Below, piece by piece: positions 32,140 through 36,021 of a stretch of DNA of 61,910 nucleotides. Origin of the DNA: Streptomyces roseochromogenus subsp. oscitans DS 12.976 (GTDB lineage: Bacteria > Actinomycetota > Actinomycetes > Streptomycetales > Streptomycetaceae); assembly GCF_000497445.1 (NCBI RefSeq), contig NZ_CM002285.1:7103546-7165455 (forward strand). Reading direction: 5' to 3'. The notes below the pieces were generated by a model. It made no database searches. It was not told the origin of the DNA and saw nothing but the letters and a program-made list of their open reading frames with translations. Every line of letters begins with the position of its first letter. Positions within the stretch are counted from its first letter, which is position 1. A program made the position numbers and the translations under genes.

Positions 32140-33204
32140 ATGAGCGCTGTGACCCCCGCTGGAGGCGACACCACGGCGGGCCGCTCCTGGCCCGCCCTGC
32201 TGAACGGCCTGCTGAACGGCCAGGACCTGTCCGCCGACGACACCGCGTGGGCGATGGACCGGATCATGCGCGGCGAGGCGACCGACGCGCAGATCGCCGG
32301 GTTCGCGGTGGCACTGCGGGCCAAGGGGCAGACGGTGCGGGAGATCACCGGTCTGGTCCGCACGATGTACGAGCACGCGAACGTGATCGAGGTGCCCGGC
32401 CGGACCGTCGACATCGTCGGCACGGGCGGCGACGGCGCGAAGACCGTGAACATCTCCACGATGTCGTCGCTCGTCGTCGCCGGTACGGGCGCGAAGGTCG
32501 TGAAGCACGGCAACCGCGCCGCGTCCTCCGCCTCCGGGTCCTCCGACGTCCTGGAGAAGCTGGGCGTCAACCTCGACCTGCCGCCCCGGCGGGTGGCCGA
32601 GGTCGCGGAGGAAGCCGGCATCACCTTCTGCTTCGCGGTGAAGTTCCACCCCGCGCTGCGCCATGTGGGCGCCGCACGCGGTCAGTTGGGCATCCGGACG
32701 GTGTTCAACCTGCTCGGTCCGCTGACCAACCCGGCCAAGGTGCGGGCCCAGGCGGTCGGCGTGGCCGTCGCCGAGGAGGCGCCGATCGTCGCGGGCGTGC
32801 TCGCCGAGCGCGGCAACTCCTCGCTGGTCTTCCGCGGCGACGACGGCCTGGACGAGCTGACGACGACGTCCACGTCGCATGTCTGGGTCGTCCGGGACGG
32901 CAAGGTCACCGAGGAGCGCTTCGACCCGCGGGAGGTCGGCATCGAGCTGGTCCCCGTGGAGGCGCTGCGCGGCGGCGACCCGTCCCACAACGCCGAGGTC
33001 GCCCGCCGTCTGCTGGACGGCGAGCAGGGCCCGGTTCGGGACGCGGTCCTGCTGAACTCGGCGGCGGCCCTGGTGGCCCTCCAGCCGACGGACGCCTCGC
33101 TCGCCGACCAGCTCCGGGCAGGCATGGCCAGAGCCGCAGAGTCGGTCGACTCGGGTGCGGCGAAGCGGACGCTGGAGCGGTGGGTGGCAGCCACCAACCG
33201 CTGA
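32140..33204 (+). CDS. trpD: Anthranilate phosphoribosyltransferase TrpD
   Basis: 354 aa, ATG 32140 with CAGGAG six bases upstream. Joins PRPP and anthranilate in tryptophan synthesis. Signatures: [20 protein letters not shown] (PRPP loop), [33 protein letters not shown] and [11 protein letters not shown]. It stands alone, without other trp genes here; a fused anthranilate synthase lies ~29 kb away at the right edge. Confidence 0.97.
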
Positions 33205-33288
33205 CACCGGCGGGGTGTGACGCGAGGCGCAGTCCAGATGGCGGACTGCGCCTTGCGCGTCGAAGATCGTATGGCAGGATACGAGCCA

Positions 33289-33404
33289 GGTCATGAGCGA
33301 CAGTCATTCGGCCCCGGCCGGCTGTCCGGCAACCCTCCGTCCGTGGCGGGGTGCCCCGGGTGAAGACCAGGTCGTAGGCAGCGAGGTCTACGGCAAGCGC
33401 GGAC
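33289..33404 (+). ncRNA. SAM-IV riboswitch aptamer
   Basis: The sequence follows the SAM-IV consensus closely. P1 pairs GGTC (33289-33292) with GACC (33365-33368). The core runs GGCCGGCTGTCCGGCAACCC. A P3 arm follows (ACCCTCC...GGGGTGCCCCGGGTGA). A CGTAG/CTACG hairpin is at 33373-33392. CGGCAAGCGCGGAC closes the aptamer. The pseudoknot is present: GTCCGTG (33339-33345) with CGCGGAC (33398-33404), one G-U pair. SAM-IV occurs mainly in actinobacteria and turns sulfur-amino-acid genes off when SAM is high. Confidence 0.93.
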
Positions 33405-33456
33405 CCCTCGCGCGCTGCTGATGGAGCGCGGGACCAGGGGTCCTGGTCGTCGAGGG
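33401..33456 (+). promoter_or_regulatory. SAM-IV expression platform with exclusive pairings
   Basis: Structure A is a closed three-way junction: CCCTCG (33405-33410) with CGAGGG (33451-33456), enclosing CGCGCT/AGCGCG (33411-33416/33425-33430) and GACCAGG/CCTGGTC (33432-33438/33442-33448). It masks the leader ORF's ribosome site. Structure B pairs GGACCCCT (33401-33408) with AGGGGTCC (33436-33443); it breaks A and overlaps the pseudoknot strand. CCTGGTC can also pair with the P1 strand GACCAGG (33365-33371). This suits translational control: SAM keeps the pseudoknot and A (off), no SAM allows B (on). Confidence 0.55.
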
Positions 33457-33464
33457 AGCCTTCC

Positions 33465-33485
33465 GTGAGCAAGCGAATGCGATAG
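33465..33485 (+). CDS. Leader peptide ORF MSKRMR
   Basis: GTG 33465-33467 to TAG 33483-33485, six codons. Preceded by CGAGGGAG with a six-base gap, the best ribosome site in the leader, and this site is the one masked in structure A of the riboswitch platform. It ends 103 bases before the enzyme start. It contains one internal Met codon and no Cys. Too short for homology; judged from position and ribosome site only. Confidence 0.45.
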   Translation: MSKRMR

Positions 33486-33588
33486 GGCCGCAGAGCCCCG
33501 CCTCCGCATACCCCTTTTCTCTTCATCCCCGTGCTTGAGCCATGCCCGCTCGCACGGCGATTCCGCCTTGCCCTACGGGAGTTCACCC

Positions 33589-34950
33589 ATGTCCGTCTTC
33601 ACCGCTGCCGCCGACCAGTCCGTTTGCGCCCCGCTGCCCGTTCTGGGCCGGGATGTCACCGTCCCGCTCGTCACCGGCGGCGAGGTCACCTACGCGGCCC
33701 TCGACTACGCGGCCAGCGCCCCCGCCCTGCAGCGCGTCTGGGACGACGTGGCCGCCTACGCGCCGTACTACGGCAGCGTCCACCGCGGCGCCGGCTACCT
33801 CTCGCAGCTCTCCACCGACCTGTTCGAGAACGCCCGCAAGGCGGTCGCCGAGTTCCTCGGCTGCCGCGCCGACGACCAGGTGATCTTCACCCGCTCGACC
33901 ACGGACTCCCTGAACCTGCTGGCCCGCACGCTCCCCGTCGACTGCCAGGTCTTCGTCTTCGAGACCGAGCACCACGCCTCCCTGCTGCCCTGGCAGGACG
34001 CGCACGTCACCTACCTCAACGCCCCCCGCACCCCACGGCAGGCCGTGGCGACCCTGGAGCGGGCCCTCGCCGACCGGAACCCCCACGGCCCGGCCCTGGT
34101 CTGCGTCACCGGCGCCTCCAACGTCACCGGCGAGCTGTGGCCGGTGCGCGAACTGGCCGCCGCGGCGCACGCGCACGGCGCCCGGATCGTCCTCGACGCC
34201 GCCCAGCTCGCCCCGCACCACCCGCTCGACATCCGCGATCTGGACGTCGACTGGGTCGCCTTCTCGGGCCACAAGCTGTACGCCCCCTTCGGCGCCGGCG
34301 TCCTGGCCGGCCGTGCCGACTGGCTGCGCACGGCCGAGCCGTACCTCGCGGGCGGCGGCGCCAGCCGCAAGGTGACCCGGCGTCAGGACGGCGGCGTGGA
34401 CGTGGAGTGGCACGAGAGTGCCGCGCGGCATGAAGCGGGGTCGCCCAATGTGATCGGCGCCTACTCCATCGCGTCGGCCTGCAAGGCGCTCACCGAGGCC
34501 GGCTGGGACACCCTGGTCGCCCGCGAGCAGCACCTGATCACCAAGGTCCGTGCGGGCCTGGCCGCCGTCCCCCAGGTGAAGGTGCTGTCCCTCTTCGGGG
34601 ACGACGCCCCGCGCGTGGGCGTGATCTCCTTCGTCGTGGACGGCTGGAACAGCTCCCACTTCGCCGCCGCGCTCTCCGCCGAGTACGGCATCGGCGTCCG
34701 TGACGGCCTCTTCTGCGCCCATCCCCTGGTCCGCACCCTGCTCGGCAGCGACCCCCAGGCCCAGGGCGAGTGCGGCGCCCCCGAGGCGGCCCCCGGCGAG
34801 AAGTCCCTCAACGCCATCCGCGTGAGCTTCGGCGCGGGCACCCCCGACGAGCACGTGGAACGCTTCGTCAACGCCGTGAAGGAACTGGTGACCGAGGGCG
34901 CGAAGTGGACGTACAGGACGGAGGACGGCCGCTGCGTCCCGGCGGTGTGA
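33589..34950 (+). CDS. Cysteine-desulfurase-like PLP enzyme (class V aminotransferase fold)
   Basis: 453 aa. ATG 33589-33591 has CGGGAG upstream and starts MSVFTAAADQSVCAPLP; an upstream in-frame TTG at 33535 has no ribosome site. SufS/CsdA-like features: RSTTDSLNLLA, FETEHHASLLPWQ, VTGASNVTGELWPV, DAAQLAPHHPLD, the PLP lysine in AFSGHKLYAPFGAG, and GIGVRDGLFCAHPLVR, where SufS carries its active-site Cys loop. Probably a sulfur- or amino-acid-handling lyase/transferase. The SAM-IV riboswitch upstream links it to sulfur amino-acid supply. Confidence 0.85.
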   Translation: MSVFTAAADQSVCAPLPVLGRDVTVPLVTGGEVTYAALDYAASAPALQRVWDDVAAYAPYYGSVHRGAGYLSQLSTDLFENARKAVAEFLGCRADDQVIFTRSTTDSLNLLARTLPVDCQVFVFETEHHASLLPWQDAHVTYLNAPRTPRQAVATLERALADRNPHGPALVCVTGASNVTGELWPVRELAAAAHAHGARIVLDAAQLAPHHPLDIRDLDVDWVAFSGHKLYAPFGAGVLAGRADWLRTAEPYLAGGGASRKVTRRQDGGVDVEWHESAARHEAGSPNVIGAYSIASACKALTEAGWDTLVAREQHLITKVRAGLAAVPQVKVLSLFGDDAPRVGVISFVVDGWNSSHFAAALSAEYGIGVRDGLFCAHPLVRTLLGSDPQAQGECGAPEAAPGEKSLNAIRVSFGAGTPDEHVERFVNAVKELVTEGAKWTYRTEDGRCVPAV

Positions 34951-34993: not shown

Positions 34994-35275
34994 CTACGAC
35001 TCCAGCCCGATGGAGAACGCCGCCTCCAGGTCATGCTGGGAGTACGTACGGAACGCGACGTGCGTGTCCGTCCCCTCCACCCCGGGAATCTTGCTGATCC
35101 GCCCGGGGATGACATCGGCGAGATCATCGTGCTGCCGCACCCTGACCATCGCGATCAAGTCATACGTACCCGTGACGGAGAAAACCTCGCTCACCGATTC
35201 CAGCGAAGCGATCTGCTCCGCGATCTCGGGGATCCGGTCCACGCTGGTCTTGATGAGGACGATCGCGGTGATCAC
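34994..35275 (-). CDS. Stand-alone Lrp/AsnC effector (RAM) domain protein
   Basis: 93 aa from GTG 35273-35275, with GAGGGAGAG nine bases upstream; the start overlaps the rhomboid stop (GTGA). The chain is one alpha/beta RAM domain (VITAIVLIKTSVDRIPEIAE, VSVTGTYDLIAMVRV, GVEGTDTHVAFRTYS). There is no helix-turn-helix, so it cannot bind DNA itself. Stand-alone RAM proteins sense amino acids and can bind full-length Lrp proteins. Lies convergent to the riboswitch-controlled enzyme. Confidence 0.9.
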   Translation of the reverse strand: MITAIVLIKTSVDRIPEIAEQIASLESVSEVFSVTGTYDLIAMVRVRQHDDLADVIPGRISKIPGVEGTDTHVAFRTYSQHDLEAAFSIGLES

Positions 35276-36021
35276 GGCTGGTTCTCTCCCTCGGGTGCCG
35301 GAGCTGGGGCGCACTTCACTCTAGCCGCACGGCCGTAGCGCACCCACGCGTAGCCGAAGCCCAGCCCGAAGCCGACCAGGTGGGCCAGATACGCCACCCC
35401 GGGGCCGTCGGAGGTCTGCTCGGCCGCCGCCCACTGCAGGGCCGCCCAGAACGGCAGCACGACCCACGCGGGGAACCTGAGAGGCAGGAAGAACAGGAAC
35501 GGCAGAAGACTGGTGACGCGGGCGCGGGGGAACAGGTAGAGGAACGCTCCGAGGACCGCCGAGATCGCCCCGGAGGCGCCGACCAGCGACTGCTCGGAGG
35601 TGGCATTGGCGGCCGCGTAGCCCAGCAGGGCCAGATATCCGCAGCCGACGTAGAAGAGGGTGAACTCGACCCGGCCCATCCGTTCCTCGGTCATCGCGCC
35701 GAAGACGAAGAGGAAGAGCATGTTGCCGAGCAGATGCACCCAGCTGCCGTGCAAGAACAGGGCCGTGGCGGGGGTCAGGGCCTCGCGCACCGGCCGGGCG
35801 AACAGCTCGGCCGGGACCACGCCCCAGCGCCGGAAGTACGCCCGCTGCGCGGCGAGCAGGGCGTCCCCGGTGCCGTATCCGGGTGTGAGACCCGAGGCCG
35901 GGCCCAGGACGAAGAGCACGCAGCACAGGGCGATGAGGCCGTATGTCAGGGGTGCCGATGTGCTCCGGATCGCTCTGAGGGCCCTGCCGGTCGCCGTGCT
36001 CCACGCGCTGATCATGAACAC
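35272..36021 (-). CDS. Rhomboid-family intramembrane serine protease
   Basis: 249 aa, GTG 36019-36021 (ATG 36013-36015 also possible; no clear ribosome site for either). Six membrane helices. Signatures: FLHGSWVHLLGNMLFLFVFG (the HxxxHxxN helix), catalytic Ser in VGASGAISAVLG and catalytic His in AYLAHLVGFGLGF. Cleaves membrane proteins within the bilayer; substrate unknown. Upstream partner of the RAM protein, overlapping by four bases. Confidence 0.95.
   Translation of the reverse strand: MFMISAWSTATGRALRAIRSTSAPLTYGLIALCCVLFVLGPASGLTPGYGTGDALLAAQRAYFRRWGVVPAELFARPVREALTPATALFLHGSWVHLLGNMLFLFVFGAMTEERMGRVEFTLFYVGCGYLALLGYAAANATSEQSLVGASGAISAVLGAFLYLFPRARVTSLLPFLFFLPLRFPAWVVLPFWAALQWAAAEQTSDGPGVAYLAHLVGFGLGFGYAWVRYGRAARVKCAPAPAPEGENQP

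Follow-up and report, generated by a model that had tools for sequence, protein, structure and literature searches.

A SAM-IV riboswitch of Streptomyces probably acts on a conserved six-codon leader ORF ahead of a cysteine desulfurase-like gene

Introduction

Does the SAM-IV riboswitch in front of a class V aminotransferase gene of Streptomyces act on the start of that gene, or on a short reading frame lying between the two? The question is raised by a locus in a window of 61,910 nucleotides (the whole stretch of DNA analyzed here) from Streptomyces roseochromogenus subsp. oscitans DS 12.976, for which a first-pass annotation had proposed control at a six-codon leader open reading frame (ORF). 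RNA-seq of S. lividans has confirmed that a cysteine desulfurase gene is preceded by a SAM-IV leader, and the sections of that study drawn on here name eight leader peptides, none of them at this gene (PMC8079986). Here, we argue from comparison across the family that the SAM-IV aptamer is coupled to a translational platform, that the six-codon leader ORF is probably its direct target, and that leader RNA left untranslated would be ended early, probably by Rho.

Results

The aptamer is the sole Rfam match at gathering level in the window. Its score of 109.5 bits (gathering score 38, E 2.6e-19) bears out the earlier description of it as clear. In 3' order it is followed by alternative stems, the leader ORF, a hairpin on the leader stop codon, a C-rich stretch and the enzyme gene; trpD (TIGR01245) lies upstream of the SAM-IV locus. 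The principal features are as follows.

33289-33405, plus strand: SAM-IV aptamer (RF00634; cmscan, full model 1-116)
33341-33345, plus strand: CCGTG, P3-loop strand of the presumed pseudoknot (sequence reading and known SAM-IV architecture)
33365-33371, plus strand: GACCAGG on the P1 side (located by script)
33398-33402, plus strand: CGCGG, pseudoknot strand (sequence reading; overlaps the 5' arm of the alternative stem at 33401-33408)
33465-33485, plus strand: leader ORF GTG AGC AAG CGA ATG CGA TAG, MSKRMR* (sequence)
33577-33581, plus strand: GGGAG, the enzyme's own Shine-Dalgarno (SD) sequence (sequence)
33589-34950, plus strand: class V aminotransferase / SufS-like cysteine desulfurase, 453 aa (PF00266, 256 bits; TIGR01979, 253.5 bits)

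By the known SAM-IV architecture, CCGTG and CGCGG would form the second pseudoknot, which joins the P3 loop to the 3' tail; their pairing can be read in the letters, and the structure line of the RF00634 alignment carries no pseudoknot. The enzyme, which starts with ATG at 33589, is an Aminotran_5 protein closest to the SufS cysteine desulfurases and stays below the NCBIfam cut-offs (475.1 for TIGR01979). Convergent with it, 34994-35314 on the minus strand encodes an Lrp/AsnC ligand-binding domain alone (PF01037), and no DNA-binding domain was matched in this protein.

Of 199 genomes of the genus, 194 have SAM-IV, as do 118 of the 121 in the family sample. For the comparison, 211 of 220 fetched loci were oriented by a pattern; nine were unmatched (L033, L154, L162, L185, L189, L206, L207, L215 and L216), with L033 inspected manually. 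Those loci that are named represent the best 80 of 568, hence close relatives, and may overlap the genomes of the genus and family surveys. All counts are loci and not independent species, with the window (L031) as one of the 160 leader loci, among which 33 distinct ORFs remain.

A start codon, one or two codons, CGA, ATG, one further codon and a stop follow the aptamer in 160 of the 211 oriented loci, the window included, so that a conserved upstream ORF (uORF) stands between switch and gene as in the Mbox/pe20 type of system. A recount without the start-codon requirement again gave 160 leader loci. The start is in frame in every one of them (GTG 130, ATG 21, TTG 9), lies three codons before CGA in 159 and two in the remaining one, and always has upstream of it a purine-rich, SD-like pattern ending at a distance of 4-9 nt. 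The distinct ORF sequences are spread over ten genus groups. Codon 2 is AGC in 137/159 and codon 3 AAG in 140/159 of the leader loci, codon 6 varies more (CGA 109, CGC 25, CGT 19, CGG 1, others 5, none in one locus), and the stop is TAG in 159/160. One leader (L145) has lost a single codon in frame, and another (L123) ends one codon early, with TGA directly after ATG.

CGA and ATG are invariant across these 160 loci, a set that was itself found by CGAATG, and the 51 loci without CGAATG, read individually, include none with the same leader and another Arg codon. Codon 4 seems to be held at the nucleotide level. Among 46 likely genes of the window, CGA is also rare (48 of 1,411 Arg codons). The R-M-R of the leader may match the +X+ motif of macrolide-type stalling. 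The core motif MAGCGAATGCGHTAG was found 38 times in 37 of 81 genomes (the reversed pattern twice), and 37 of the 38 matches adjoin a SAM-IV site when compared by eye; a single copy, CAGCGAATGCGATAG at G250:C1:2548946, lies away from any listed SAM-IV and is perhaps there by chance. Neither MSKRMR nor VSKRMR is mentioned in the open-licence literature that was searched. Other leader forms also occur behind SAM-IV, namely GTG-ATG-GCG-TGA in group g5 (L200, L210, L211, L214) and MQMMR* in g15 (L164), and in two loci read further (L252, L251) the same enzyme lies 3' of other leader forms.

An invariant CGA beside a codon 6 free to change would also be expected if CGAAUG and the hairpin behind it were an RNA element that binds a protein or another RNA, with the ORF incidental. 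This is distinctly unlikely: a start in frame in every leader locus, achieved with three different start codons and an SD pattern at the proper spacing, speaks for a reading frame, as do the codon-sized deletion in L145, the early TGA in L123 and the TGA or TAA stops of leaders in other families.

What a riboswitch acts on can be read from the relatives that lack the leader before the enzyme, in which the enzyme start mostly occupies the leader's place. The leader arrangement is not universal: the ORF is absent and the enzyme start lies directly at the switch in all 27 loci of g14, in g2 (3/3), in g10 (1/1), in 6 of the 27 g7 loci and in S. flaveus (L107). Conversely, the leader ORF is retained in 29 loci without long switching stems. 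Because relatives have the enzyme start where the leader would be and the ORF is kept even where the long stems are missing, the position behind the switch appears to be its output, which in the lineage of the window would be the leader ORF. The comparison (median 102 nt, 155/160 loci) thus supports the proposal that control is exerted at the leader, about 100 nt before the enzyme. As enzyme and leader interchange at the switch, the comparison further argues that both are under the same sign of control, so that translation of the leader would favor the enzyme. Mapping leader (in any form) against direct arrangement onto a tree built from 67 enzyme proteins requires five changes; the tree is rooted at its midpoint and two long branches meet there (L128, L251), so its ancestral state is provisional.

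This bears on the opposite possibility, that translation of the leader represses the enzyme, through a ribosome halted at CGA-AUG or at the stop, and that SAM would switch the enzyme on. A repressive uORF is described at the mycobacterial metE B12 riboswitch, in the part of the work used here (PMC11260477), and the rare CGA codon would suit a pausing ribosome. However, in relatives that share aptamer and enzyme, the enzyme itself lies at the switch, so repression by the leader would require the sign of control to be reversed with every one of the tree's five changes, and we regard it as quite improbable.

How the switch could reach the leader is suggested by two sets of pairings between aptamer and ORF. 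A script locates both the six-codon ORF and the pairing strands where the first-pass annotation had placed them.

33401-33408, plus strand: GGACCCCT, 5' arm of the alternative (SD-open) stem
33405-33410, plus strand: CCCTCG, anti-SD strand of the SD-masked state
33432-33438, plus strand: GACCAGG, 5' arm of the inner hairpin of the masked state
33436-33443, plus strand: AGGGGTCC, 3' arm of the alternative stem
33442-33448, plus strand: CCTGGTC, 3' arm of the inner hairpin, also complementary to the P1-side GACCAGG at 33365-33371
33451-33456, plus strand: CGAGGG, masking partner of CCCTCG, overlapping the leader SD GGGAG at 33454-33458

The platform could be sorted in 158 of the 160 leader loci (129 long, 29 short); stem statistics cover 128 long-platform loci and the accessibility model 141 leader loci. 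A stem that starts at the GG of the pseudoknot strand scores at least 7 in 126 of the 128, compared with 1.4% of shuffles, and the SD-masking stem at least 5 in 110 of the 128, compared with 31.9%. The platform is thus able to mask the SD of the leader ORF, as in riboswitch-controlled uORFs of the Mbox/pe20 type. Compensating changes accompany both stems. The alternative stem is GGACCCCT/AGGGGTCC in most loci and GGATCCCT/AGGGATCC in 13 (C-G to T-A); the masking arms are CCCTCG/CGAGGG in 37 Streptomyces loci and vary with pairing kept, as in g16 (CTCGCGA/TCGCGGG) and g17 (CTCGCGT/ACGCGGG). Both pairings of the annotation, the masking of the ORF's ribosome site and the 8-bp alternative that would compete with it, are therefore above chance, and covariation of the platform stems among relatives is mostly in their favor. 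In the direct form of g14, the SD is masked by GCACTCC/GGAGTGC or TGCACTCC/GGAGTGCA in 12 of the 27 loci, and in most g14 loci the first stem is short, with 4-6 contiguous pairs.

Computed folding gave less. The free optimum in the window is the masked junction (-38.6 kcal/mol), and the fold with the alternative stem reaches -35.9 kcal/mol, 2.7 above the free optimum, itself masked; the masked junction also remains the optimum, at -33.5 kcal/mol, when the pseudoknot strand is blocked. The 141-nt stretch 33400-33540 is not more stable than its shuffles (z 0.87). Across the locus set, the thermodynamic accessibility model showed almost no switching and no clear opening of the SD. Blocking the pseudoknot strand moved mean SD accessibility from 0.16 to 0.13 in the 129 long-platform leader loci (lower in 95), with a drop of more than 0.3 in one of them (1.6% of shuffles), from 0.33 to 0.30 in 25 direct loci, and upward, from 0.23 to 0.35, in 12 short-platform loci. 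The short platform, found in 31 loci (29 with a leader), has the SD close behind the pseudoknot strand, and the computed accessibility model leaves masking in these loci unexplained.

Three further pairings were set aside. The match of CCTGGTC to the P1 strand GACCAGG, pointed out earlier, is indeed present, with 7 nt in 95 of the 160 leader loci and 5-7 nt in 127, and is absent in 33. As a competitor for P1 it is weak and was rejected, being confounded because CCTGGTC also pairs locally in the inner hairpin. Pairing of the conserved CTCCGCA tail with TGCG of the ORF, seen by eye in many Streptomyces, is absent in other genera and hence cannot explain the conservation of CGAATG. A role of CCTCC as an anti-SD toward the enzyme's SD, also seen by eye, involves 4 bp.

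If the leader ORF is the output, its effect has to be carried over the sequence that separates it from the enzyme. Two features occupy this region.

33485-33498, plus strand: hairpin GGGC/GCCC, beginning on the last base of the leader stop codon
33498-33557, plus strand: C-rich, G-poor stretch, candidate Rho loading region (composition)

In 155 of the 160 leader loci (21% of shuffles), the stem of the stop-codon hairpin scores 4 or higher, and its pairing is kept despite sequence change, with arms GGGC/GCCC, GGGCC/GGCCC, GAGGCC/GGCCTC, GGCGC/GCGCC and GGGGCC/GGCCCC. The five loci without a scoring hairpin include four with large inserts there (L029, L030, L041, L079). Large or palindromic inserts at this hairpin were seen in seven Streptomycetaceae loci (these four and L024, L121 and L203), and look as if small mobile elements target it. 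The following 60 nt of the window contain 28 C and 11 G, a composition at the 99th percentile when all 60-nt windows of both strands are ranked. The bias is shared by the 160 leader loci, C making up 55% and G 12% of nucleotides 15-30 past the leader stop, and 42% and 16% of nucleotides 30-45.

One way across would be reinitiation, with ribosomes that finish the leader restarting at the enzyme, as happens at uPPE2-PPE2, which follows a B12 riboswitch (PMC11260477, in part). Reinitiation of this type would call for overlapping stop and start codons and no SD of the gene's own. In the leader loci, however, the distance from stop to start has a median of 102 nt (5-95% range 64-192), the enzyme start has its own SD pattern in 155/160, and a hairpin stands between the two, which makes reinitiation very improbable.

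Control of transcription is the other way. An intrinsic attenuator would show a GC hairpin followed by a T run, and no terminator-like site was found in 33150-33700; termination would hence rest on Rho or on an unusual hairpin. The latter is attractive insofar as the stop-codon hairpin is so widely kept, T runs follow it in some loci (for example L012), and U-poor stem-loop transcript ends are reported for S. clavuligerus in the portion of that study used here (PMC8269248). Yet its stem score averages 4.5, and together with the missing terminator-like site this makes it unlikely that the hairpin is itself the terminator. The same portion reports, from Term-seq, a premature transcription unit before CRV15_21540, a class V aminotransferase with SAM-IV, among the most extreme ratios in S. 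clavuligerus; CRV15_21540 appears to be the orthologue of the enzyme gene in the window. In an S. griseus study with premature units, a term search of the text available found SAM-IV unmentioned (PMC8914203).

Leader ORFs behind SAM-IV are not confined to this gene. The source genome has three SAM-IV copies, each followed by a leader ORF. Those at L032 (C1:1278245-1278356; NF042934 19.3 bits, below the cut-off of 27) and L033 (C1:6939303-6939416; HIDLKRSTSCLC, 29.3 bits against 27) are of the Cys type, with Cys codons and an HVDL/HIDL-like motif, and the genes behind them read as transporters. In the class sample, SAM-IV was found in 81 of 148 genomes. Beyond the family, 81 loci (L280-L361 except L299; L361 incomplete; L283, L291, L310, L317, L336, L340 and L355 not counted) mostly have the gene directly at the switch, by reading; five carry a CGAATG leader (L280, L282, L300, L304, L342) and five another short leader (L298, L322, L344, L352, L354).

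In family f29, SAM-IV was present in six of eight genomes searched, with a CGA-ATG leader behind the best copy in all six: MCRCRMTGVAGA, MCCCRMTGVAGA, MCCNRMFQVARA, MCCCRMQQVTGA, MNTTQRMRAVVGA and one containing MQRMLSAVRAATCACVRTP, with Cys codons before CGA in four. One genome each of f23, f6 and f30 gave the leaders MCIRRMCCR, MSCQRMPRR and MNHHRMRR. The long ORF behind the leader in these nine loci is one that we take to be a metY-like enzyme (WSFET..IHAGQ). These four other actinobacterial families account for the CGA-ATG leaders of L362-L367, L280, L282 and L300, several of them Cys-rich (MCCCRM..). As read from these loci, the CGA-AUG core accompanies the SAM-IV aptamer before different genes. 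We tentatively suggest, as a possibility rather than an expectation, that SAM-IV in several families of Actinomycetia gates a leader with an invariant CGA-AUG, that a Cys-rich form adds a cysteine input, and that Streptomyces lost the Cys codons and kept the core. If true, two inputs would be read in turn, with SAM setting whether the leader is read and the cysteine supply where the ribosome stops, and CGA-AUG would be a ribosome-programming core through which a translational riboswitch comes to act as a gate on transcription.

Discussion

The locus is probably one in which SAM-IV controls the leader ORF and, through it, the enzyme gene. The polarity of SAM, the translation of the ORF, its coupling to termination and the part of Rho, as we infer them, would combine as follows. 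With SAM bound, the pseudoknot would hold CGCGG, GGACCCCT would be unable to pair with AGGGGTCC, and CCCTCG would pair with CGAGGG and hide the leader ribosome site; the untranslated leader would then bring transcription to an early end, most likely by Rho. Without SAM, the alternative stem would form and the leader would be translated. A ribosome at the leader stop would open the hairpin and cover the start of the C-rich region, and RNA polymerase would continue into the enzyme gene.

On this account, SAM-IV gains a defined output in most Streptomyces examined, and the premature transcript at such a gene may be explained by the leader ORF. The CGA-AUG pair, kept while its neighbors change, is a sharp clue to how the six-codon ORF acts.

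Short leader ORFs before sulfur genes are shared with the Cys-type leader peptides, which include NF042934 (cis_reg_atten) and the mycobacterial polycysteine attenuators reportedly described by Canestrari in 2020. In contrast to a Cys-responsive leader peptide, MSKRMR has no Cys codon, and it is only six codons long. The aptamer and the class of regulated gene (sulfur metabolism) are shared with SAM-IV as described (RF00634, PMC6890682); in the portion of that cryo-EM account considered here, a leader ORF output is absent and the term 'expression platform' occurs 0 times. The first-pass annotation knew of no description of such an output for SAM-IV. As a kind it is known, from the Mbox (PMC12810186) and B12 riboswitches (PMC11260477) in the parts of those papers used here; for SAM-IV itself, no account of a leader ORF was found among the matches listed in the open-licence literature.

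The B12 riboswitches with uORFs known in mycobacteria offer one comparison (PMC11260477, in part). At metE/ppe2 of M. tuberculosis, a riboswitch is likewise combined with a uORF, translated there and predicted to be so here. The ppe2 gene needs translation of its uORF, with stop/start overlap and reinitiation, whereas about 100 nt and a separate SD lie between leader and enzyme in the window.

The mycobacterial Mbox is closer, and the system in the window seems, by analogy, to work like Mbox-pe20. There, a riboswitch controls a uORF together with Rho-dependent termination, as set out in the sections of PMC12810186 used here, and the likeness suggests that relays from riboswitch to leader ORF are not a mycobacterial oddity. 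Mbox/pe20 of M. tuberculosis, with the uORF rv1805A, shares a translational riboswitch platform before a conserved uORF, and it has premature termination in the leader, as is proposed for the window (PMC12810186). Its authors place the main transcript end upstream of the uORF, so termination there need not depend on the uORF. Mbox/pe20 alone has a Mg aptamer, two uORFs and a uORF product for which the genome encodes a homologue at another site; the window, by comparison, has a SAM-IV aptamer and one six-codon ORF with a hairpin on its stop, an arrangement found in ten genus groups and in whose relatives the gene itself is repeatedly placed at the leader's site.
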